Of a stretch of 54,332 bases of DNA, positions 17,542-26,724 are shown one piece after another. Numbering within the stretch: the first letter of the stretch is position 1; each line of letters starts with the position of its first letter. The notes beneath the pieces were generated by a model. That model was not told where the DNA came from, searched no databases, and saw only the letters and a program-made list of their open reading frames with translations. Source of the stretch: Bacteroidota bacterium (GTDB lineage Bacteria; Bacteroidota; Bacteroidia; UKL13-3); assembly GCA_947507965.1 (NCBI GenBank), contig CANNQU010000014.1, positions 1-54,332 of the forward strand, given 5' to 3'. Made by a program: the position numbers and the translations under genes.

Positions 17542-20500
17542 ATGAGGAAATTTTTCACAATTACATTTCTATTCTGTTCACTAATCGTCACCAAGTCGCA
17601 GTCGTTACTAGGGCTCGAAGCTGCTAAATACATAGCACAAACCGATGAAATCCGGCTAGACCAAGAGGGTCGAAAACCGGTGTTTATACATTTCCATGCT
17701 TCAAGCACCCTATTATTTGAGAATTTTACGTTATGGGCAATAAGTAACCTACACTTAAAAGGCAATAACAGCCTCGTACTTGTAGGACAAGAAAAAGATG
17801 CATTAGAGATGGTACATTACCGTTACCAGCAGTACTTCAATGGAAGACCAGTGGCCTACTCCATGCTCATCGTTCATACCTTAAAAGGTAGAATTATCTC
17901 ACTAAATGGAGACTATTATCCAGGATTATCGGATGTGTTTCAATCGAATTTCAGTGAATCAGAAGCATTAAGAAAAGCGATTGATGCGATCGGTGCTTCA
18001 AAATATGCTTGGGAAGACCTTCCGATGGAATCGATGATTAAATATATCGACAACCAATTATCGGCTACGTATTATCCTAAAGGAGAGCTCGTTTATATTT
18101 CGAAAAACAACTCATTAAAAGTGGAAGATTTTAGGCTCGCCTACAAATTCAACCTATATGCCATGGAGCCAATGAGCAGAACTAATATTTTTGTAGATGC
18201 CTCGAATGGAGAAATACTCTTTACCGAGAACTTGATTCATACCTCAAATGTAATTGGTACTGCCCACACGAAATATAGTGGTATAAAATCATTCACCACA
18301 GATAGTACCGCTCCTGGCTCCTACCGATTGCGCGAAACCGGTCGTGGTTTAGGTGTAGAGACCCTCAATTTCAAAAATGGAACAAGTACTGCGGCTGCAA
18401 TTGATTTCACCGATACCGATAATGACTGGAATAATATTAATGCACAAAAAGATGAAGTTGCCACCGATGCGCATTGGGGAGCCGAACAAACCTACGACTA
18501 CTTCAAGAATTCATACAATAGAAATAGTATCGATGGTAACGGATTTAAACTGAGAAGCTATGTACATTACAGCAATAATTATAATAATGCCTTTTGGAAC
18601 GGACAATACATGACGTATGGTGATGGTAATGGAACCACTTTTAGTCCACTTACAGCACTTGATGTATGTGGGCACGAGATAACCCATGGACTTACTTCCA
18701 ACACTGCAAATTTAGTATATCAAAACGAATCGGGTGGATTGAACGAATCCTTTAGTGATATTTTCGGAACAACCATTGAGTACTACGGCCGTAATGGAGC
18801 AGGCAACTGGAAAATTGGAGAAGACATGACGCCCGGTGGCAACGGGATACGAAGCATGCAGAATCCAAAACTTTTCAACCATCCCAATACCTATCTGAAA
18901 CAGTACTGGATTGCAGCAGGTGGAACGGATAATGGAGGAGTGCATACCAACAGTGGAGTTCAAAACTACTGGTATTATTTAATGTGTCAAGGAGGAAGCG
19001 GCACCAATGACAATGCAAAAGCCTATACTGTACCCGGTATGGGAATGGTAAAAGCAGGGGCAATAAGTTTTCGAAGCTTAACCTTTTATTTAACCCCTAA
19101 CTCGCAATTTTCCGATGCTCGCTTCTATGCTATTCAGGCAACCAAAGACTTGTATGGCCCCTGTGCTCCTGAAGTTAAAATTACAACCAATACCTGGGCG
19201 GCTGTGGGTGTAGGCAATGATTTCGACAGCACCGTGAAAGCCCTGTTTTATAGTAACGACACCTTAATTTGTGGGAATACCGGCACTGCCGCTTTTTTAA
19301 ATACCAGTAGTAATGCAGCTACTTATGTGTGGGATTTTGGTGACGGAAGTACAAAAAGTACCGTTTCTAATCCTTCTCATACCTACGCTGTTGCAGGGAA
19401 TTATACGGTTAAATTAAAGGTAGGAAGTTGCAGTACTCCGGTAGTCTTTGACTCCATCACAAAAGTGAGTTATATTAATGTTGCTCCTACCAATCCGATT
19501 TGCTTATCACAAAAGATGCCCTCAGGCACCTTAACCGGAACGACCATTAACCTATGCAGTGGGAAGCTGATGGATAATGGAGGGGTAGGAAATTATACCG
19601 CCAATACCAACTCAAAGCGTACCATCTCTCCTACCAATGCCGGATTTATTATCATCAAATTCAATTCATTTAGCTTCGAAAATGGGTATGATTATTTATA
19701 TGTTTATGATGGCCCAACAACGGCGAGCCCGTTAATAGGGAAATACACCGGCACTAATTTACCTAATGGCGGAACGATAACTACGACCGGTGGCTCTGTA
19801 ACCTTTGTGCAATCAACCGACGCTGCAGTGGAGAACGCAGGATTCGACCTCGATTGGCAATGTTATCTAAAAACGTCAAATGATATTGCCGTTATTAAAA
19901 TTTTTCCTATTTCCAGCTTACGACAAAACACGCCTACCTATACTAGTTCATCGACCGTTACCGCATTAATTAAAAACATTGGTACGGTAGCGCAAAGTAA
20001 TATTCCGGTAAGTTATCGTGTTAATGGTGGAGCCATCGTATCCACGGTATCGCCCCCCGGTTTGATGCTACCCAACGATATTGATACCATTGTATTTCCT
20101 ACCCCAATAACCAATACCATCGGCGTCTTTAATCTCAAGGTTTTCAGCACCCTCTTCACCGATACCACACGGGTTAATGACACTTCCAATATCTCCTTTA
20201 AAATAGTAGAGAACGCACCGGTAATATTACCTTTTAACGAAGGTTTCGAAAACATGAATAAGGATAGTTCAAACAAAAAAGTATTTGCATTAACAGGAGC
20301 TGAAAAAATAGACTATGAAAGTAATGACACCGTAAACTATTGCCGCTATAGAAATACGCCGTTTAGCATAGCCCCGAATTCAGGTGTACGTTTAATAACG
20401 CTCGACAGAAGCCCACCTGTTGCTGGAAACGATACGTCATTCAGTAATTACCTCATTCTCACATTAAATTTAACAAATTATTTAGTTCAAAATAAAGTTT

Positions 20501-21069
20501 ATCTCGAATTTTATTATAAAAACCATGGTGATGAACGACATTCCAACGATAAAGTATGGATTCGTGGAAGTATGAACAATGCATGGATCGAAGTATTTAC
20601 CTTAATACCTTACGACACGCTAAAATCGGGAGTTTTTTATCTTGTATCAGGCATTCCGATCGATTCAATTTTAAGCGTTAATGGGCAAACACTCTCTACC
20701 AATACTCAGATACGGTGGGGACAACAGGACAATAATAAAGCCTCGAATGATGGAAACTCAGCTAGCGGTGATGGAATAAGTTTCGACGATATACGGGTAT
20801 ATAATATTGCCATCGTAGGCATGAGCGATGCGAATGTATCGGTAGGTGAGATCAAAATTTATCCAAACCCTGCCCAAGGAGAAGTAACTGTGATTGGTTT
20901 AACAACGCAAGCTACCCTTACCTTAATGGATGTTACAGGCAAAATAATACACGTTAACGATTCATCTAAATCATGTACATTGAATACCAGTATGCTAGTC
21001 AAAGGAATATATTTATTGAATATTGCCAACGAAAGCATGAATATTACCAAGAAATTAATTATAGAGTGA
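17542..21069 (+). CDS. Secreted M4 (thermolysin-family) protease with PKD, CUB and T9SS tail
   Basis: 1175-residue exoprotease. Order: signal peptide (1-19); propeptide with FTP/PepSY-type regions (about 25-230); M4 catalytic domain (about 235-560) with zinc motif HEITH (378-382) and third ligand Glu402 in GGLNES; PKD domain (about 565-632, WDFGDGST); CUB-like domain (about 650-775); a beta-rich region that may include a jelly-roll; and a type IX secretion sorting domain (about 1100-1175, starting KIYPNPAQGE and ending KKLIIE). It should cross the outer membrane through the type IX system and degrade external proteins. A bidirectional terminator follows at once. Confidence 0.94.
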   Translation: MRKFFTITFLFCSLIVTKSQSLLGLEAAKYIAQTDEIRLDQEGRKPVFIHFHASSTLLFENFTLWAISNLHLKGNNSLVLVGQEKDALEMVHYRYQQYFNGRPVAYSMLIVHTLKGRIISLNGDYYPGLSDVFQSNFSESEALRKAIDAIGASKYAWEDLPMESMIKYIDNQLSATYYPKGELVYISKNNSLKVEDFRLAYKFNLYAMEPMSRTNIFVDASNGEILFTENLIHTSNVIGTAHTKYSGIKSFTTDSTAPGSYRLRETGRGLGVETLNFKNGTSTAAAIDFTDTDNDWNNINAQKDEVATDAHWGAEQTYDYFKNSYNRNSIDGNGFKLRSYVHYSNNYNNAFWNGQYMTYGDGNGTTFSPLTALDVCGHEITHGLTSNTANLVYQNESGGLNESFSDIFGTTIEYYGRNGAGNWKIGEDMTPGGNGIRSMQNPKLFNHPNTYLKQYWIAAGGTDNGGVHTNSGVQNYWYYLMCQGGSGTNDNAKAYTVPGMGMVKAGAISFRSLTFYLTPNSQFSDARFYAIQATKDLYGPCAPEVKITTNTWAAVGVGNDFDSTVKALFYSNDTLICGNTGTAAFLNTSSNAATYVWDFGDGSTKSTVSNPSHTYAVAGNYTVKLKVGSCSTPVVFDSITKVSYINVAPTNPICLSQKMPSGTLTGTTINLCSGKLMDNGGVGNYTANTNSKRTISPTNAGFIIIKFNSFSFENGYDYLYVYDGPTTASPLIGKYTGTNLPNGGTITTTGGSVTFVQSTDAAVENAGFDLDWQCYLKTSNDIAVIKIFPISSLRQNTPTYTSSSTVTALIKNIGTVAQSNIPVSYRVNGGAIVSTVSPPGLMLPNDIDTIVFPTPITNTIGVFNLKVFSTLFTDTTRVNDTSNISFKIVENAPVILPFNEGFENMNKDSSNKKVFALTGAEKIDYESNDTVNYCRYRNTPFSIAPNSGVRLITLDRSPPVAGNDTSFSNYLILTLNLTNYLVQNKVYLEFYYKNHGDERHSNDKVWIRGSMNNAWIEVFTLIPYDTLKSGVFYLVSGIPIDSILSVNGQTLSTNTQIRWGQQDNNKASNDGNSASGDGISFDDIRVYNIAIVGMSDANVSVGEIKIYPNPAQGEVTVIGLTTQATLTLMDVTGKIIHVNDSSKSCTLNTSMLVKGIYLLNIANESMNITKKLIIE

Positions 21070-21084
21070 GATTCAAATTGATGT

Positions 21085-21121
21085 AAAAAGAAGCTGCGCA
21101 ACAAGTCGCGGCTTCTTTTTT
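21085..21121. terminator. Bidirectional rho-independent terminator
   Basis: AAAAAGAAGC pairs with GCTTCTTTTT, with a GCG/CGC inner stem and a T.G pair; T-runs follow on both strands. It can end both the M4 protease transcript (+) and the YbdK/ATP-grasp operon (-). Confidence 0.88.
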
Positions 21122-21235: not shown

Positions 21236-22339
21236 TTAGGTGCCCGAAATGGTTTGGGCTAAAATATAATCGACTACATCATTCAAGTTTTGAGTATGAT
21301 TGAATACGGCAAGCTGCCGGTCGGCACCAGTGCCACGTTCAAGCATTTTACTAATATAGTTAATATCCTCGCGGCAACCCAACCCATCCACTACATCGTC
21401 AATAAAATCAATTATCTCACCTATTAAATACCGAGTATTTACTTCCGTTTGTTTGCCAAAATCAACCAATAAACCATCAATGCCATACCGGCTGGCACGC
21501 CATTTATTTTCATTTAGCAAGGCTCGTTTATATACAATAAACGACTGATTGTTTTGTCGCAGTTGATATAGCTTTGCACAAAGGCATTGAAACAAAGCAG
21601 TGATAGCCAATGTTTCATCAACTAACATGGGGATATCACAGATCCTAAATTCAATGGTATCATAGAATGGGTGCACCCGCAAATCCCACCATATTTTTTT
21701 TGCGTTATCGATGCAGTTCGTTTTTATTAAAAGCTTAATATAATTATCATATTCTTCAATACTTTCGAAATAATCGGGAATGCCGGTGCGTGGAAACTTG
21801 TCGAATACTTTGGTACGAAAGGATTTGAATCCTGTATTCCGTCCTTCCCAAAATGGCGAGTTCGTGCTTAAGGCAAACACATGGGGCAGAAAATAACGTA
21901 CGGTATTCGCGATAAAATTTGCCAACTCACGATCTTGCATGCCAACATGAACATGCAAGCCGAAAATTAAATTGCTACGAGCCGCATCTTGCATCTCGTT
22001 CACAATTTCATGATAACGTGGGTTTTCGGTGATCATCTGCTTATCCCATCGACTAAAAGGATGAGTTCCGGCCGCACCAATACGTAAACCTAAATCGCAT
22101 GCTAAATTCGACACCGAGCGTCGAAGCATGGTTAGATCGTCTCGAGCCTCAGCGGTATTTCTACAAATTTTGGTACCTACCTCTACCACTGCTTGATGCA
22201 TCTCTGCCTTCACCTGATCTTCAAGAAGAATCTTTTGTGCACCGGAAACTATTTTTTGGTCATGCGAAGCCAACTCCCGGGTTACGGGGTCAACAACCAT
22301 ATACTCTTCTTCAATTCCTATTGTAAATTCGTTAGACAT
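21236..22339 (-). CDS. GCS2/YbdK-type carboxylate-amine ligase
   Basis: ATP-dependent amidoligase of the glutamate-cysteine ligase 2 family, 367 residues (E. coli YbdK has 372). It joins a carboxylate, usually the gamma-carboxyl of glutamate, to an amine. Motifs are the N-terminal GIEEEYMVVDP with metal-binding glutamates, GLHVHVGM, the segment RNTGFKSFR and the strand FRICDIP. It lies 65 bp downstream of the ATP-grasp gene, in the same direction and under its promoter. The products likely act in sequence, the YbdK enzyme making an amide and the ATP-grasp protein extending it, or the reverse. The substrates are not evident, and ordinary glutathione synthesis is less likely because the ATP-grasp partner is not GshB-like. 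Confidence 0.9.
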   Translation of the reverse strand: MSNEFTIGIEEEYMVVDPVTRELASHDQKIVSGAQKILLEDQVKAEMHQAVVEVGTKICRNTAEARDDLTMLRRSVSNLACDLGLRIGAAGTHPFSRWDKQMITENPRYHEIVNEMQDAARSNLIFGLHVHVGMQDRELANFIANTVRYFLPHVFALSTNSPFWEGRNTGFKSFRTKVFDKFPRTGIPDYFESIEEYDNYIKLLIKTNCIDNAKKIWWDLRVHPFYDTIEFRICDIPMLVDETLAITALFQCLCAKLYQLRQNNQSFIVYKRALLNENKWRASRYGIDGLLVDFGKQTEVNTRYLIGEIIDFIDDVVDGLGCREDINYISKMLERGTGADRQLAVFNHTQNLNDVVDYILAQTISGT

Positions 22340-22404
22340 AATGATAGAATGGTCAATAAATAATGGTTCGTGAATACGATGATGTTATTATGAAAAAAAA
22401 TGAA

Positions 22405-23451
22405 TTACTTATCCTTTTTCTGAATGCTTTTTTTAGCAATTTCACCTGCCGATTTTGGAGCCTTTTGTTTCGTTATTTTCGTGGCGGCTATATTCTCGAT
22501 TTTCTTTCCAGCTACCGCTTGTTGCATGAAAGTACCCCACGTAAGATTCATCACCCCCGGTTTAAATTCTTTTGCTTTTTCGATGGCAAAATTTGCGGAA
22601 GTTTCCACTACCCAATCAAAATTTTCTTGCCCAACGCTCTTAATATCGGCATCGGGTGCCGGATTGCAGAAATCAATAGCAATAGGTATTCCATCGCGCA
22701 CCGCAAATTCTACGGTATTAAAATCATACCCTAGTGCTTTATTCAACCGTAAAACGTAATCATGAATCGTACTTAATAAAGCTTTCGAAGCTTCGCCTTT
22801 GTCGCTTTCATAACGAAGGTGATGTGGGTTAGCTGGTTCATAACGCATAATACGCACGTGCTTACCTCCGATACAATAACAACGGAAATAATCGGTAAAG
22901 TCAATCGTTTCCTGAAGCAGCATGACCAATTGTCCCGTCTCATTATATTTTTCAAAGAAATCGGCTTGCGTATCGAGTTTGTAAACACTCTTCCATCCAC
23001 CGCCATCAAAAGGTTTCATAAAAGTGGAAGACCCGAGATAGTCAAACATACCATCCCAATCCATCGGAAATTTTAAATTCCGGAATGACAGATCCGTTGT
23101 ATCATTAGGGCGATCTTTGGAAGGCAGTAAAACCGTTTTGGGAACCGGCACACCGACTTTGATAGCCAGTGCGTTATTAAAAAACTTTTCATCGGCACTC
23201 CACCAAAATGGATTGTTCACCACGGCAGTGCCCGAGAGAGCAGCATTTTTTAACATCCCGCGATAAAACGGGATATCCTGGCTTATCCGATCAAAAATTA
23301 CAGCATATCGTGGATCTTCCCCTTGCACCACTTTGTCGATTGATACTGGCTCTGCGGTGATCCCGGATACTTTTTTTTCATTAATTCGTTCCACGAATGC
23401 TTCCGGAAAACTATGTTCCATTCCGTGTAAAATTCCAATAATTTTTGTCAT
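22405..23451 (-). CDS. ATP-grasp domain protein (putative peptide/amide ligase)
   Basis: 348-residue ATP-grasp enzyme: ATP activates a carboxylate as acyl phosphate, then an amine attacks. The N-terminal pre-ATP-grasp region spans about 1-110. The ATP-grasp core follows, with FMKPFDGGGWKSVY holding the nucleotide-binding lysine and a Gly loop (about 165-178). The acidic and Asn metal ligands are in NTVEFA and IDFCNPAPD (about 245-275). The C-terminal 35 residues are Lys-rich and look disordered. It is the first gene of the operon with YbdK and is divergent from an esterase. It is not close to GshB, RimK, DdlA or CarB in its motifs. Confidence 0.85.
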   Translation of the reverse strand: MTKIIGILHGMEHSFPEAFVERINEKKVSGITAEPVSIDKVVQGEDPRYAVIFDRISQDIPFYRGMLKNAALSGTAVVNNPFWWSADEKFFNNALAIKVGVPVPKTVLLPSKDRPNDTTDLSFRNLKFPMDWDGMFDYLGSSTFMKPFDGGGWKSVYKLDTQADFFEKYNETGQLVMLLQETIDFTDYFRCYCIGGKHVRIMRYEPANPHHLRYESDKGEASKALLSTIHDYVLRLNKALGYDFNTVEFAVRDGIPIAIDFCNPAPDADIKSVGQENFDWVVETSANFAIEKAKEFKPGVMNLTWGTFMQQAVAGKKIENIAATKITKQKAPKSAGEIAKKSIQKKDK

Positions 23452-23537
23452 GACCGATTTTTTTTAATATTAATTTTATGTTGTTATCATTCCATTCCCA
23501 AATAATATTCAATCAACTATTTAAAGTTGTTATTTTA

Positions 23538-23568
23538 CAAAGCTAAAAATCAAATTATTAAATCCAAA
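23538..23568 (-). promoter_or_regulatory. Putative promoter for the ATP-grasp/YbdK operon
   Basis: Minus strand: TTTG, 19 nt, TAGCTTTG, an ideal Bacteroidota match. It lies in the 160-bp divergent region shared with the esterase and gives a leader of about 85 nt. Confidence 0.65.
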
Positions 23569-23611
23569 TTTATTTATCTTTATTTAAAAAAAAGATATTT
23601 TCGCGCCTTAC

Positions 23612-24394
23612 ATGTTTGTATTTAACATTTTCTCTAAATTCCTAAAACGGCAAATAACCGTTGAACTCTTTGTACCACATGATGCCGCCTCACAGGAAGC
23701 TCAATTGGAGCTCCTGGTTTTAAATGACGGGCAGGACACTAAATCCCTAAATTTATTATCCATATTACATAACGTATATGCTGAGGGGCAAATGAAACCG
23801 ATGGTAATTGCAGCCATCTACGCAGATACCCACCGGTTGGATGATTATGGTGTGGCCGGAATATTAGACTATAAGAAAAGAGGCAAAACGGCTCGGCAGT
23901 ATCAACTTTTCATCGTGAATGAATTAATCCAATTTGTAGCGGCGAAAATAAAAATCAGTAACTTTAAGCGACATCATATTGCCGGTTTTTCTATGGGTGC
24001 TTTAAGCGCCTTTGATACGGCCTGGAAATACGACACTTTTTTTTATAGTGCAGCATGTTTCTCCGGTTCGTTTTGGTGGCGCAGTCTCGATTTAAACGAT
24101 GGTTATAACGATCATAGCCATAGAATAATGCTTGAAAGAGTGAAACATACCCTCGTTAAGCCAAAACTAAAAATCTGGTTTCAAACGGGTCAGCTTGATG
24201 AAACACACGACAGAAACGAGAATGGCTTAATCGATAGCATCGACGACACCACCGATTTAATACAACTATTGGTTAACAAAGGATTTCGAATGCACTTCGA
24301 TATTTATTATAGAGAAGTAGAAGATGGAAGGCATAATTTTGAGACCTGGAGCCTCATTTTCCCTGAATACTTGATTTGGTTAAATTACATCTAA
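23612..24394 (+). CDS. Esterase D/Fes-type alpha/beta hydrolase
   Basis: 260-residue alpha/beta hydrolase of the putative esterase (esterase D/enterochelin esterase-like) family. The nucleophile is Ser127 in GFSMG. The acid is probably Asp in the LDETHDRNENG region, and the base is the His in DGRHNFETW near the C-terminus. There is no signal peptide, so cytoplasmic. It is divergently transcribed from the ATP-grasp/YbdK operon over a 160-bp intergenic region, so it may release or trim the product of those ligases. That link is inference from position only. Its last three codons and stop form part of the left arm of a large hairpin. Confidence 0.85.
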   Translation: MFVFNIFSKFLKRQITVELFVPHDAASQEAQLELLVLNDGQDTKSLNLLSILHNVYAEGQMKPMVIAAIYADTHRLDDYGVAGILDYKKRGKTARQYQLFIVNELIQFVAAKIKISNFKRHHIAGFSMGALSAFDTAWKYDTFFYSAACFSGSFWWRSLDLNDGYNDHSHRIMLERVKHTLVKPKLKIWFQTGQLDETHDRNENGLIDSIDDTTDLIQLLVNKGFRMHFDIYYREVEDGRHNFETWSLIFPEYLIWLNYI

Positions 24395-24444
24395 TAAAAA
24401 AAGTCGCATCGCAACGCGATACGACTTTTTTTATTAGATGTAAT
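24384..24444. terminator. Exceptionally long bidirectional terminator hairpin
   Basis: Perfect 23-bp inverted repeat (24384-24406 with 24422-24444). A C/A mismatch, a 5-bp stem (ATCGC/GCGAT) and a 3-nt loop sit at the tip. Each arm carries a 7-nt A or T run, so it should terminate both the esterase (+) and the PpiD-like gene (-). The left arm includes the last codons and stop of the esterase. Confidence 0.88.
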
Positions 24445-24446
24445 GG

Positions 24447-26561
24447 TTAGTATCGGTATCTAAGATCCTTAACTTTATACTTCGTTTTTAAGGCTTCTGT
24501 CACACTATATTCAGTGCTTTGCTTTGCCTCATTAATTTTACTGCCCTGTTGTGCTTTAATGGCATTTGCATCGGTAGCAGGAGCATCAAGAATTTCCGTC
24601 ATAAATAACACATACACTCCATTTTGTCCTTGAATAGGCTTACTAAATTTTTGTTTTGGAAGCGTTACCATCGTAGCTAAAACTTCCGGTTCGTTGCCAA
24701 TATATTCCAGGTTTGAATTTGAAAATACGGCCCCTTTAATATCCTGAGCTACCGATCCAAAGCTTATCGCCAGTTGTTCAGGCGTTTGAGCTGTTTTTAA
24801 ATTCTCATTAAACTTGTCAATTAATACTTTCGCTTTTTTATCTTTCAAAGCAAAAGCAGCTAAGTCGGTTACCTCTTCAGCTTTAAGATTTCCTTCCGGT
24901 AAAATTTCTTTCAAGCAAACAAGCACATATTTGTCGTCGATTGTATTAATTGGTGATACGTCATTAATTTTTGCACGGTACATCCATGACAAAATTGATT
25001 TTGGGTTTTGCAATCCGGGAATAAACTTATTGGTGCTGCTCAAATCGGCTGTACGCATTTGAACACCACGAGACTTACAAACATCTGAAAAAGACGTATA
25101 ATCGGTACTGTAACTTGCCAGGTCGGCAACAACGGCATAAGCACCATCAATTGTTTTTTGTGAAGAAAAAATATTTCTTGAAATTTCATACAATACCACC
25201 TTTTTTACGGGTGTTTTCTTGGTAGGTGCTGTATTTTTTACTACATGGTATCCAAATTGACTTAGCACGACACTCATTTGTCCAACCGGAGTACTTTTCA
25301 CGCCATCCTCAAATTCCTTTACCATTCCCCCAACACCAAACCAACCTAAATCGCCACCCTTATCCTTGGTGCCATCAGTACCATAAAGCTTTGCTGCGGC
25401 CTCAAATGTTTTTTTGCCAGTTAATATCTCCATCATGTATTGATAGGCTAAATTTTTTGCTTTGGCACTATCACCATTTTCAATACGAACTAAAATATGA
25501 CTTGCTTTAAATGAATCGATTGTTTCAATTACTACCTTTTTTAATTTTACCACTTTGTAAGCATTACCACTGAGGAATGGTCCATATACAGTGCCAACCG
25601 GAGCATTAAAAAGGGAGTCGGCAACACCCTTATCTAATTGTTCTTTCGAAAAGGCGGTATTGTTATTGGTACCTTGGCGCTGATAAACAAACAAAGAATC
25701 ATTCACCGCAATTTTAAATTCATCGGCTACACCATTACCCCAAAATTTCACTTCAGCCGTATCTTCACCAGATGGAACAAAATCAAAATAAACATAGTTA
25801 ATTCGACGTATTTCTTCATCCCTTTTATACTTTTCTTTGTTTTTCTTGTAAAAAGCGGTTACCTCTTCCGGCGTCACTTTTATGGTGGTATCGTTATAAT
25901 TTACATATTGTTGAGATACGTACTGAAATGAATATTTTTTATTGGATTCGGAAAACTTATTACTAATTTCAAGCGACGTAATATAGGCGGCACTCTTGGT
26001 CATGGCCGTATATTTCTCATTCATTCGTTGGATGCTAAACTCTTCTTCAAAAGGCAACCATTGAGCATGCACCTCACCATTAGGATCATCATCCAATCGC
26101 TTTAAAAAACTGATGGCACTGTTCGGGTCATACACATTATCTTTTCCAGCAAAAGATTTTCTCACGATATCGGTAGCAAACTCTTCGGTAGTACAGATGG
26201 TGTATATTTCTTCGCCAGTTACATCGATGCCCAGTTTTTCATATTGTGGATTCAATACCTTCTCCTGAATCATTTGCTGCCATACCCGATCTCTAAACGA
26301 TTCCTTCAATTGTTCATCGGCTGTAGCATTTGGATTTCGCTTTAGATATTTATCTACTTCAATATTGGTTCTGTTTTCTAAATCCTTATAATCAATATTA
26401 TCGCCATTAATGGAGCCGATGCTTGAATCATCGCCATTTCCACCAAAAAGTGAGTTTTTACCGGATAAGGCATCCTGAACTAAAAACATGAATAATGCAA
26501 GCGAAATAACGACTACCGAAATTTTCCCTCCTTTGTTTCGCAATGTTTGAATAACTCCCAT
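24447..26561 (-). CDS. PpiD/SurA-like peptidyl-prolyl isomerase, membrane anchored
   Basis: 704-residue periplasmic folding factor held by one N-terminal helix (about residues 12-32, VVVISLALFMFL). The chosen ATG at 26561 gives the start MGVIQTLRNKGGK, which fits the family; the frame continues 41 codons upstream, but a promoter lies there and that peptide looks unrelated. Domains: helix, SurA_N-like chaperone region (to about 330), a parvulin rotamase domain (about 350-445, with ASHILV and GGDLGWFG), then a second chaperone/rotamase-like part. It probably helps outer membrane proteins fold. It ends at the large hairpin shared with the esterase. Confidence 0.93.
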   Translation of the reverse strand: MGVIQTLRNKGGKISVVVISLALFMFLVQDALSGKNSLFGGNGDDSSIGSINGDNIDYKDLENRTNIEVDKYLKRNPNATADEQLKESFRDRVWQQMIQEKVLNPQYEKLGIDVTGEEIYTICTTEEFATDIVRKSFAGKDNVYDPNSAISFLKRLDDDPNGEVHAQWLPFEEEFSIQRMNEKYTAMTKSAAYITSLEISNKFSESNKKYSFQYVSQQYVNYNDTTIKVTPEEVTAFYKKNKEKYKRDEEIRRINYVYFDFVPSGEDTAEVKFWGNGVADEFKIAVNDSLFVYQRQGTNNNTAFSKEQLDKGVADSLFNAPVGTVYGPFLSGNAYKVVKLKKVVIETIDSFKASHILVRIENGDSAKAKNLAYQYMMEILTGKKTFEAAAKLYGTDGTKDKGGDLGWFGVGGMVKEFEDGVKSTPVGQMSVVLSQFGYHVVKNTAPTKKTPVKKVVLYEISRNIFSSQKTIDGAYAVVADLASYSTDYTSFSDVCKSRGVQMRTADLSSTNKFIPGLQNPKSILSWMYRAKINDVSPINTIDDKYVLVCLKEILPEGNLKAEEVTDLAAFALKDKKAKVLIDKFNENLKTAQTPEQLAISFGSVAQDIKGAVFSNSNLEYIGNEPEVLATMVTLPKQKFSKPIQGQNGVYVLFMTEILDAPATDANAIKAQQGSKINEAKQSTEYSVTEALKTKYKVKDLRYRY

Positions 26562-26595
26562 ATTATTGTACCTATTTGATTTTTTTTGAAGCGTG

Positions 26596-26626
26596 CAAAT
26601 GTATGTAAAAGTGCTGCAATAGACAA
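26596..26626 (-). promoter_or_regulatory. Putative promoter for the PpiD-like gene
   Basis: Minus strand: TTG, 20 nt, TACATTTG. The leader is about 30 nt to the ATG at 26561. The promoter falls inside the upstream extension of the open frame and so supports the shorter start. Confidence 0.6.
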
Positions 26627-26724
26627 GTATTTTTAATGGAATATAAAATAAGTATAAATCACCATTATCAGCATCCTGATTCATCCTAGTGAATGCTCAG
26701 ACTATCGTAAATAGACTTGGAAAC

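Follow-up and report, generated by a model that had tools for sequence, protein, structure and literature searches.

A YbdK-type ligase, an ATP-grasp ligase and an esterase as the reduced form of a six-gene Bacteroidota module

GCS2 and ATP-grasp ligases form amide bonds by way of acyl phosphates, and hydrolases with the class-I GATase fold work with a Cys-His-Glu triad. Among the ATP-grasp ligases, LysX and ArgX act on the LysW carrier. Linked ATP-grasp and COOH-NH2 ligases often perform successive ligations (PMC4431377; here and below, statements on the literature refer to excerpts of the papers named), a ligase family of GCS2 size adjoins a GATase-like thiol peptidase (PMC2588565), and multi-ligase peptide-like pathways are already known as a kind (PMC4431377, PMC2588565). 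RimK modifies ribosomal protein S6 (PMC4431377), and the title of a reference in PMC2588565 credits YbdK with gamma-glutamyl:cysteine ligase activity. The present work concerns a stretch of 54,332 nucleotides from a Bacteroidota bacterium (contig CANNQU010000014.1 of assembly GCA_947507965.1), hereafter called the window, in which three adjacent genes encode a GCS2/YbdK-family ligase (YbdK), an ATP-grasp ligase (GRASP1) and an esterase (EST-A). They represent a six-gene Bacteroidota module in reduced form; its other members encode a second esterase (EST-B), a GATase-like hydrolase (GATase) and a second ATP-grasp ligase (GRASP2). The features of the window that belong to the cluster are as follows:

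21236..22339, minus strand: YbdK, GCS2/YbdK-family carboxylate-amine ligase, 367 aa, second gene of the operon, assigned from family cut-offs and invariant motifs
22405..23451, minus strand: GRASP1, ATP-grasp ligase with predicted RimK/LysX fold, 348 aa, first gene of the operon, assigned from a fold model and conserved residues
22408..22536, minus strand: lysine-rich carboxy-terminal tail of GRASP1 (residues 306-348), modelled with low confidence and probably disordered
23452..23611, no strand: divergent intergenic region, the site of EST-B in the congeners G278 and G283 by comparison with them
23527..23609, no strand: 83-bp remnant of the EST-B/EST-A divergent spacer, beside EST-A and 83% identical to G278
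23612..24394, plus strand: EST-A, CE1-type (PF00756) alpha/beta-hydrolase, 260 aa, with the motif GFSMG and an EF-hand-like loop at residues 200-212

The module resembles in its general theme the amidoligase neighbourhoods of Iyer et al. (2008 and 2009), in which several peptide ligases stand in one operon with peptidases or GATase-like thiol peptidases (PMC2588565, PMC4431377). The YbdK of the window matches the YbdK family over its full length, above the curated cut-offs and with the motifs intact, the nearest solved structures being 1r8g and 1tt4 (YbdK and a homologue), but differs in that it belongs to a multi-ligase module. The E-64 pathway is a pseudopeptide synthesis based on ATP-grasp enzymes and independent of nonribosomal peptide synthetases (NRPS), as is proposed for the module (PMC12568646), and the GRASP2 model matches the fold of the E-64 ligase Cp1B (PDB entry 9cjn; Z 22.1, root-mean-square deviation (rmsd) 3.5, 356 aligned residues). 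Cp1B is, however, fungal and is accompanied by an ANL ligase and an oxygenase, neither of which is among the six families of the module (PMC12568646). In its logic, the module comes closest to the synthesis of glutathione or glutathionylspermidine when this is coupled to an amidase. A search of the open-licence literature, which took in the excerpts of PMC4431377, PMC2588565, PMC8939145 and PMC12568646 but not the amidoligase survey of 2009, where an account would be most likely, found the six-gene module nowhere described.

Composition, order and inheritance of the module

GRASP1 was used to search genome contigs and retrieved at least 599 relatives. The best 80 loci were analysed (64-90% identity, a selection biased to near relatives); by their record titles these are Bacteroidota and one Ignavibacteria metagenome-assembled genome. 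When the 1027 open reading frames (ORFs) of the 80 loci were clustered, six families recurred: GRASP1 (79 of 80 loci), YbdK (69), EST-A (66), EST-B (62), GATase (55) and GRASP2 (51). Many loci are cut by contig ends. Among the 57 with adequate flanks (at least 3.5 kb upstream and at least 4.5 kb downstream), 36 contain all six genes, five contain EST-B, GRASP1 and YbdK, another five, of other lineages, the set of the window (EST-A, GRASP1 and YbdK), and 11 other subsets. A preliminary description, made from the letters of the window, had taken the three genes as one cluster; their functional grouping stands, while the set was incomplete, as EST-B, GATase and GRASP2 also belong to it.

In the usual arrangement, EST-A diverges from EST-B, which is followed by GRASP1, YbdK, GATase and GRASP2. 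GRASP1 and YbdK lie on the same strand in all 68 loci that have both, with a median gap of 59.5 bp; EST-A is on the opposite strand in 66 of 66 loci and EST-A and EST-B are divergent in 52 of 52. Immediately 3' of GRASP1, 63 of 77 loci have YbdK, six have GATase and eight have another gene. GATase follows YbdK with a median gap of 46.5 bp (48 loci), and the gap between GATase and GRASP2 is zero or negative in 11 of 50 loci. In the window, the positions and strands first given for the three genes were confirmed by an ORF check, as were the spacers of 65 bp between the ligases (22340-22404) and 160 bp to the esterase (23452-23611).

Presence and absence were compared in an even sample of 247 genomes of the phylum, searched with GRASP1, YbdK, GRASP2 and GATase, and in 58 genomes (14 genera) of the window's own family, searched with GRASP1, EST-A, YbdK and GRASP2. 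Counts and statistics are per genome and ignore relatedness, and one weak GATase match (genome G040, E 6.6e-4) was removed before counting. In the phylum sample, GRASP1 is present in 86 genomes, YbdK in 79, GRASP2 in 73 and GATase in 59. All four are found in 41 genomes, the combination of GRASP1, GRASP2 and YbdK in 24, GRASP1 with GATase in eight, GRASP1 alone in three and YbdK alone in six. The resulting phi values are 0.85 for GRASP2-YbdK, 0.83 for GRASP1-GRASP2, 0.77 for GRASP1-YbdK, 0.75 for GRASP1-GATase, 0.59 for GRASP2-GATase and 0.57 for YbdK-GATase. In the six genomes with YbdK alone, this protein is 34-41% identical to the YbdK of the window and may, judging by these values, be of another subfamily. 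GRASP1 and YbdK are at most 8 kb apart in 46 of the 70 genomes with both. In the 31 other carriers that belong to the window's class, GRASP1 is 60-69% identical to that of the window in 30 and 30% identical in the remaining one. Beyond the phylum, GRASP1 was covered by the contig scan (best 80 of at least 599) and by plasmid and phage sequences; the latter gave no tblastn match at E 1e-5, and the idea that plasmids or phages carry GRASP1 was rejected.

Within the family, GRASP1 is found in eight of 58 genomes and strong EST-A matches (E <1e-50) in the identical eight, eight further genomes having weak EST-A matches only (E 2e-7 to 6e-4). YbdK and GRASP2 are in an identical set of nine, made up of the eight with GRASP1 and genome G291; the family-level Fisher values are 5e-10 and 5e-9. 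Presence of the module differs within genera, with four of five genomes positive in the window's genus, and in the four carriers of that genus GRASP2 is on a separate contig. Conserved order and co-inheritance show that the arrangement exceeds chance. Together with the wide co-occurrence, they bear out the shared function that had been proposed for GRASP1, YbdK and EST-A, and the rarity of co-occurrence that had been named as an argument against it was not found across Bacteroidota. It is very probable that all six genes serve one pathway.

In G291 (L156, G291:C11), EST-A, EST-B and GRASP1 are jointly gone, with YbdK, GATase and GRASP2 kept. The loss adjoins the same flanking gene that borders the lost genes in two sister genomes. 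This block loss suggests that the module consists of two sub-units, with an assembly collapse as the alternative.

On contigs other than that of the cluster, the window genome does contain a GATase, which is 51% identical to the L049 protein (G000:C61:7680-8474), and a GRASP2 (G000:C41:6988-8175, 44% identity); for EST-B it has distant paralogues only (31% identity). Two of these paralogues, at G000:C17:19794-20510 (L139) and G000:C41:27342-28049 (L138), are in gene blocks with similar neighbours. The congeners G278 and G283 have an intact EST-B of 236 aa between EST-A and GRASP1, and in G270 a truncated ORF of 92 aa occupies the site, which scores 27 bits to the EST-B profile and is 44% identical to residues 1-45 of the G278 EST-B. 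Because EST-B is intact in congeners and 83 bp of spacer are retained beside EST-A, the 160-bp divergent region of the window is best read as the product of an EST-B deletion. Simple absence of EST-B from the window's lineage was ruled out, as the congeners reveal the deletion. The esterase gene is thus divergent from the ATP-grasp gene in the window, as first described, but in the congeners EST-B intervenes.

Three divergent loci (L126, L128 and L129) contain a variant, in which GRASP1 is followed by a relative of circularly permuted ATP-grasps and then by GATase; the second ligase is changed, with GRASP1 and GATase constant. This relative scores 37.3 bits against PF14403 in L126 (cut-off 32), and 24.3 and 20.9 bits, under the cut-off, in the other two. 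In L129, GRASP1 was located from the phylum-sample search. Located 3' of GATase are a PF00756 esterase (44.6 bits) in L126 and, in L128, a gene that scores 32 bits to the EST-A profile.

Families, folds and catalytic residues

GRASP1 passes no curated Pfam or NCBIfam cut-off. Against the RimK family model (rimK_fam, TIGR00768), the window protein scores 24.9 bits and that of L005 33.1 bits, with a cut-off of 143.4. Against R2K_2 (PF18299, cut-off 26.2 bits) the window protein reaches 15.9 bits and those of L015, L031 and L148 15.5-16.5, L005 giving no match; membership of the R2K clade was rejected, as these scores are under the Pfam gathering cut-off. No Ddl model is listed for the GRASP1 of the window, the orthologue in L049 scores 12.3 bits against a Ddl cut-off of 243 (NF002378), and no GshB model is listed up to E 0.1 in Pfam and NCBIfam, which presumably contain such models. 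By phmmer, no sequence relatives of GRASP1 were found in the PDB at E 1, and the best PDB profile match is a Ddl with an E-value of 0.004.

The model of GRASP1 (m8202e1b9a0ec), with a predicted local distance difference test (pLDDT) score of 77.8, can be superposed on RimK (7qys) with a Z of 20.3, an rmsd of 3.0 and 256 aligned residues. For RimK, LysX and ArgX together, the Z values are 18.4-20.3 (LysX and ArgX around 19.5), with an rmsd of about 3 over 237-258 residues and a sequence identity of 12-16%; Ddl, PurK and synapsin give somewhat lower Z values. The model places GRASP1 in the RimK/LysX fold group, with an ATP-grasp fold and a pre-ATP-grasp domain. Foldseek puts Ddl first, so that the choice of a nearest subfamily is tentative. 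GRASP1 shares with RimK, LysX and ArgX the overall fold and a metal set (E248, D260 and N263) assigned by motif, but differs in its low identity, its score far under the RimK-family cut-off, the lysine-rich tail that many GRASP1 proteins have and its module context. The protein had been described as unlike GshB, RimK or Ddl; this is so for the curated cut-offs of RimK and Ddl, but not for the fold, which is RimK/LysX/ArgX-like. A close orthologue among known enzymes, which would have spoken against the preliminary description, was not encountered, as GRASP1 is without a close characterised relative. K146, E248, D260 and N263 are each present in 32 of 33 aligned homologues, the exceptions being L131 (30% identity), which lacks K146, D260 and N263, and L132, which has an aspartate at 248.

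The tails of GRASP1 orthologues are 9 to 194 residues long, with 23% lysine and 19% alanine overall. By a fixed criterion, a lysine-rich low-complexity tail is present in 42 of 79 GRASP1 proteins, in none of 501 control ORFs taken from these loci and in one of 299 other module proteins. The tail in the window, with 11 lysines in 43 residues and a net charge of +8, falls short of this criterion; the pLDDT of residues 301-348 is 42-63 per block of ten. Among the 38 six-gene loci considered, nine have fewer than eight lysines among the final 30 residues of GRASP1, and L016 and L060 are essentially tailless, which makes the lysine tail dispensable for the module. GRASP1 is also without a tail in L055, L057 and L067. 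The carboxy-terminal extension of the L031 protein (1332-2831) resembles the tails of models for NuoE, the phasin PhaH and the ribosomal proteins L21 and S2, under the cut-offs.

YbdK passes the cut-offs of its family, with 534 bits for NF010039 (cut-off 371), 295 for TIGR02050 (176) and 203 for PF04107/GCS2 (21), and stays far under those for cyanobacterial GshA and EgtA (63 against 249 bits for TIGR02048 and 12.4 against 371 for TIGR03444). The pairs E10/E12, H129/H131 and E230/R232 are invariant in 23 aligned sequences. All four alignments of this work were drawn from larger sets. Of 75 usable orthologues, 57 have fewer than 370 aa, and A1 joins 40 of these to the window protein; A2 has 40 of 50 sequences and A3 26 of 54, while A4 adds 22 of 60 to the window protein.

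GRASP2 passes no Pfam or NCBIfam cut-off and is too short to contain a fused amidase; against the glutathionylspermidine synthetase family PF03738, the protein of the window genome scores 13.7 bits (cut-off 29.3). Its model, with a pLDDT of 91.8, can be superposed on YgiC (7uk8) with a Z of 25.7 and an rmsd of 3.6 for 341 residues (model residues 1-395) and on human glutathione synthetase (2hgs) with a Z of 24.6 and an rmsd of 3.8 for 370 residues (model residues 4-395). It is predicted to have, over its full length, the three-domain fold of glutathione synthetase, glutathionylspermidine synthetase and YgiC. This likeness extends to the YgiC/YjfC peptidylpolyamine, glutathione and glutathionylspermidine synthetases in general (Z 22-26, 325-370 residues), but at an identity of only 9-14% and with no family cut-off reached. 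A K-P-L-x-S-F-x-G-x-G loop and an E-x-R motif are invariant. Profile comparison revealed no homology between GRASP1 and GRASP2, and the idea that they are homologues was rejected.

Two GATase orthologues score 36.6 and 34.6 bits against PF00117 (cut-off 22.8), and the triad of C105, H208 and E210 is conserved in at least 97% of 56 sequences. EST-A passes PF00756 (94.3 bits, cut-off 22) but not the enterochelin esterase model NF007758 (43.4 against 222). At least 97% of 67 sequences keep its nucleophile S127 and H241; the GxSxG motif, which had been called intact, is indeed so (GFSMG, residues 125-129), and both esterases, EST-A and EST-B, keep it. Residues 200-212 of EST-A form an EF-hand-like loop, D-x-N-x-N-G-x-I-D-x-x-D-D, with D200, D208 and D212 conserved in at least 97% of the 67. 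Going by this motif, the loop may bind calcium.

The proposed pathway and its alternatives

The preliminary description had proposed that the cluster makes and trims a small gamma-glutamyl compound; the common function of the genes is supported, and the compound is a matter of inference. We somewhat favour, at little better than even confidence, a dedicated NRPS-independent amide-bond pathway that includes GRASP1, YbdK and EST-A and leads to a glutathione-like or peptidyl-amine small-molecule conjugate. Families, folds, intact catalytic motifs, gene order and co-inheritance are the observed basis; the substrates, the order of the steps and the product are inferred. YbdK would convert the gamma-carboxylate of glutamate to an acyl phosphate and couple an amine or amino acid to it. 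GRASP2 would extend the gamma-glutamyl intermediate by a second amino acid or amine, and GRASP1 would append a third residue to the small molecule or to a macromolecule-bound form. The GATase-like hydrolase would use its Cys-His-Glu triad to strip the gamma-glutamyl group, in which case glutamate may act as a protecting group or handle, and EST-A and EST-B would cut an ester or amide of the product. As GRASP1 is in 86 of 247 genomes and 60-69% identity is kept, environmental Bacteroidota probably use this product as a core metabolite or modification and not as a strain-specific natural product. The three amide ligases, all ATP-dependent, and the two or three hydrolases define a pathway that can be tested; it could lead to a glutathione-like compound that has gone unrecognised or to a protein modification of a new kind. 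We know of no cellular role for YbdK, and the module would supply a physiological context for it.

Several observations count against this pathway. Among the 86 GRASP1 genomes, 16 are without GRASP2, 16 without YbdK and 28 without a GATase match, and three have GRASP1 alone; YbdK, GRASP2 or GATase is within 8 kb of GRASP1 in only 62 of the 86. EST-B is dispensable in the window's lineage. In the variant loci a relative of permuted ATP-grasps replaces YbdK and GRASP2, so the gamma-glutamyl step may not be universal, and GATase could supply ammonia instead of stripping a gamma-glutamyl group. Class-III aminotransferases, which would also fit amino-acid metabolism, flank the module in nine of 80 loci, and the lysine-rich tail of GRASP1 is unexpected in a plain small-molecule ligase.

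Such a tail points to an acidic binding target or to an acceptor role, and keeps alive the hypothesis that the module tags a protein or polymer with peptides. GRASP1 would then work on a protein or carrier terminus in the manner of RimK or LysX/ArgX, with its tail docked to an acidic target or serving as acceptor; YbdK and GRASP2 would make or extend the tag, which would be taken off again by GATase and the esterases. The nearest folds of GRASP1 are indeed those of modifiers of ribosomal protein S6 or the LysW carrier, its lysine-rich tail is almost absent from the control ORFs and the other module proteins, and surplus hydrolases would suit erasers. Yet the nine lysine-poor six-gene loci and the tailless proteins of L016, L060, L055, L057 and L067 argue against tagging, as does the look of GRASP2 and YbdK, which is that of small-molecule ligases. 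Nor does a LysW-sized carrier or a graspetide precursor recur across taxa among the 196 short ORFs near the module (25-89 aa with an ATG start, ORFs overlapping larger ones being excluded). On balance we regard tagging as unlikely. In a more specific and more doubtful version, YbdK and GRASP2 would make a gamma-glutamyl or peptidyl-amine group, and GRASP1, with the histone-H1-like, lysine-rich tail that it bears in many genomes, would attach it reversibly and without the ribosome. In this version, the acceptor would be a protein or polyanion, perhaps the lysine tail of GRASP1 itself, and GATase and the two alpha/beta-hydrolases would erase the group. If true, it would be a ribosome-independent modification widespread in environmental Bacteroidota.

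A glutamate-amine ligase next to a class-I GATase-fold hydrolase, at the short median gap given above, resembles the PuuA-PuuD putrescine route. On that model of a catabolic salvage of amines or amino acids, YbdK would gamma-glutamylate an amine for processing and the GATase-like hydrolase would free the product. The class-III aminotransferases near the module, one of which (L049) is an ornithine aminotransferase, would agree with this, but they are found in nine of 80 loci only, belong to two subfamilies and take two positions, and two more ATP-consuming amide ligases are ill-suited to a purely degradative route; such salvage appears improbable. That the genes are neighbours without a common function, linked by shared ancestry of the neighbourhood, would suit the window genome, where only three genes are together, and the 24 of 86 genomes without YbdK, GRASP2 or GATase within 8 kb of GRASP1. 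However, presence and absence are correlated even where the genes are unlinked, the genome sets of GRASP1 and EST-A (8/58) and of YbdK and GRASP2 (9/58) coincide, and GRASP2 is co-inherited from another contig in the window's genus. Mere neighbourhood is therefore very improbable indeed.

Flanking signals and neighbouring genes

The cluster is bounded by two hairpins and two convergent genes, located in the window as follows:

17542..21069, convergent to YbdK: gene for an M4 (thermolysin-like) metallopeptidase
~21085..21121, no strand: hairpin with a T/A run between the M4 peptidase gene and YbdK, by sequence inspection (shorter, 21097-21110, by scan)
24391..24437, no strand: bidirectional hairpin, like an intrinsic terminator, between EST-A and the SurA/PPIase gene convergent to it, by hairpin scan
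24447..26684, convergent to EST-A: gene for a SurA-like peptidyl-prolyl isomerase (PPIase)

Two regulatory signals of the preliminary description were not confirmed as given. A sigma-70-type scan for its promoter gave eight sites against 12.9 expected from shuffled sequences (standard deviation 3.4), which is fewer than by chance. As for its shared terminator, the bidirectional hairpins at the two ends are common to the cluster and the convergent neighbours outside, and are not shared within the cluster. Two TAnnTTTG words, which we take to be the Bacteroidota -7 consensus, are located upstream of GRASP1 on its strand, at 23572 and 23545, a count made without a chance control. The M4 peptidase has 1175 aa with PKD, CUB and T9SS type-A sorting domains and is probably secreted.

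The short ORFs around the module fall into groups, of which the largest, with 20 loci, encodes a small Cys-rich membrane protein seen in Mucilaginibacter loci, and every other group is limited to at most four loci; the idea of a graspetide precursor or carrier was rejected, as no short ORF recurs across taxa. An extra alpha/beta-hydrolase is inserted between EST-B and GRASP1 in five loci (L008, L013, L053, L071 and L077); the one tested, from L053, is proline-iminopeptidase-like, under the cut-off. A class-III aminotransferase gene is located 3' of GRASP2, on the same strand and at less than 200 bp, in five of 51 GRASP2 loci (L016, L030, L033, L051 and L060), and the same aminotransferase cluster occurs 0.6-1.4 kb beyond EST-A in four (L007, L049, L071 and L077). 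The two tested from the former position are acetylornithine-like, under the cut-offs, and the one tested from the latter, in L049, is the ornithine aminotransferase (665 bits, cut-off 378). These aminotransferase and hydrolase neighbours may have joined the module late, or may point to an amino acid such as ornithine as substrate.

In genus g124 of the window's family, lpxB is located 3' of GRASP2 on the same strand in L151, L152, L153 and L156. It overlaps GRASP2 by four bases in L151, L152 and L156 and is 2 bp apart in L153; its identity rests on 247 bits in L151 and 243 bits in L153 (cut-off 190) and was judged by eye in L152 and L156. This adjacency, seen in one genus only, makes a link to the cell envelope possible. 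In family f25, an aromatic amino acid lyase gene lies near GRASP1 in L117, L118, L119, L120 and L122, identified with 655 bits to PF00221 in L119 and by eye, from the amino-termini, in the other four.

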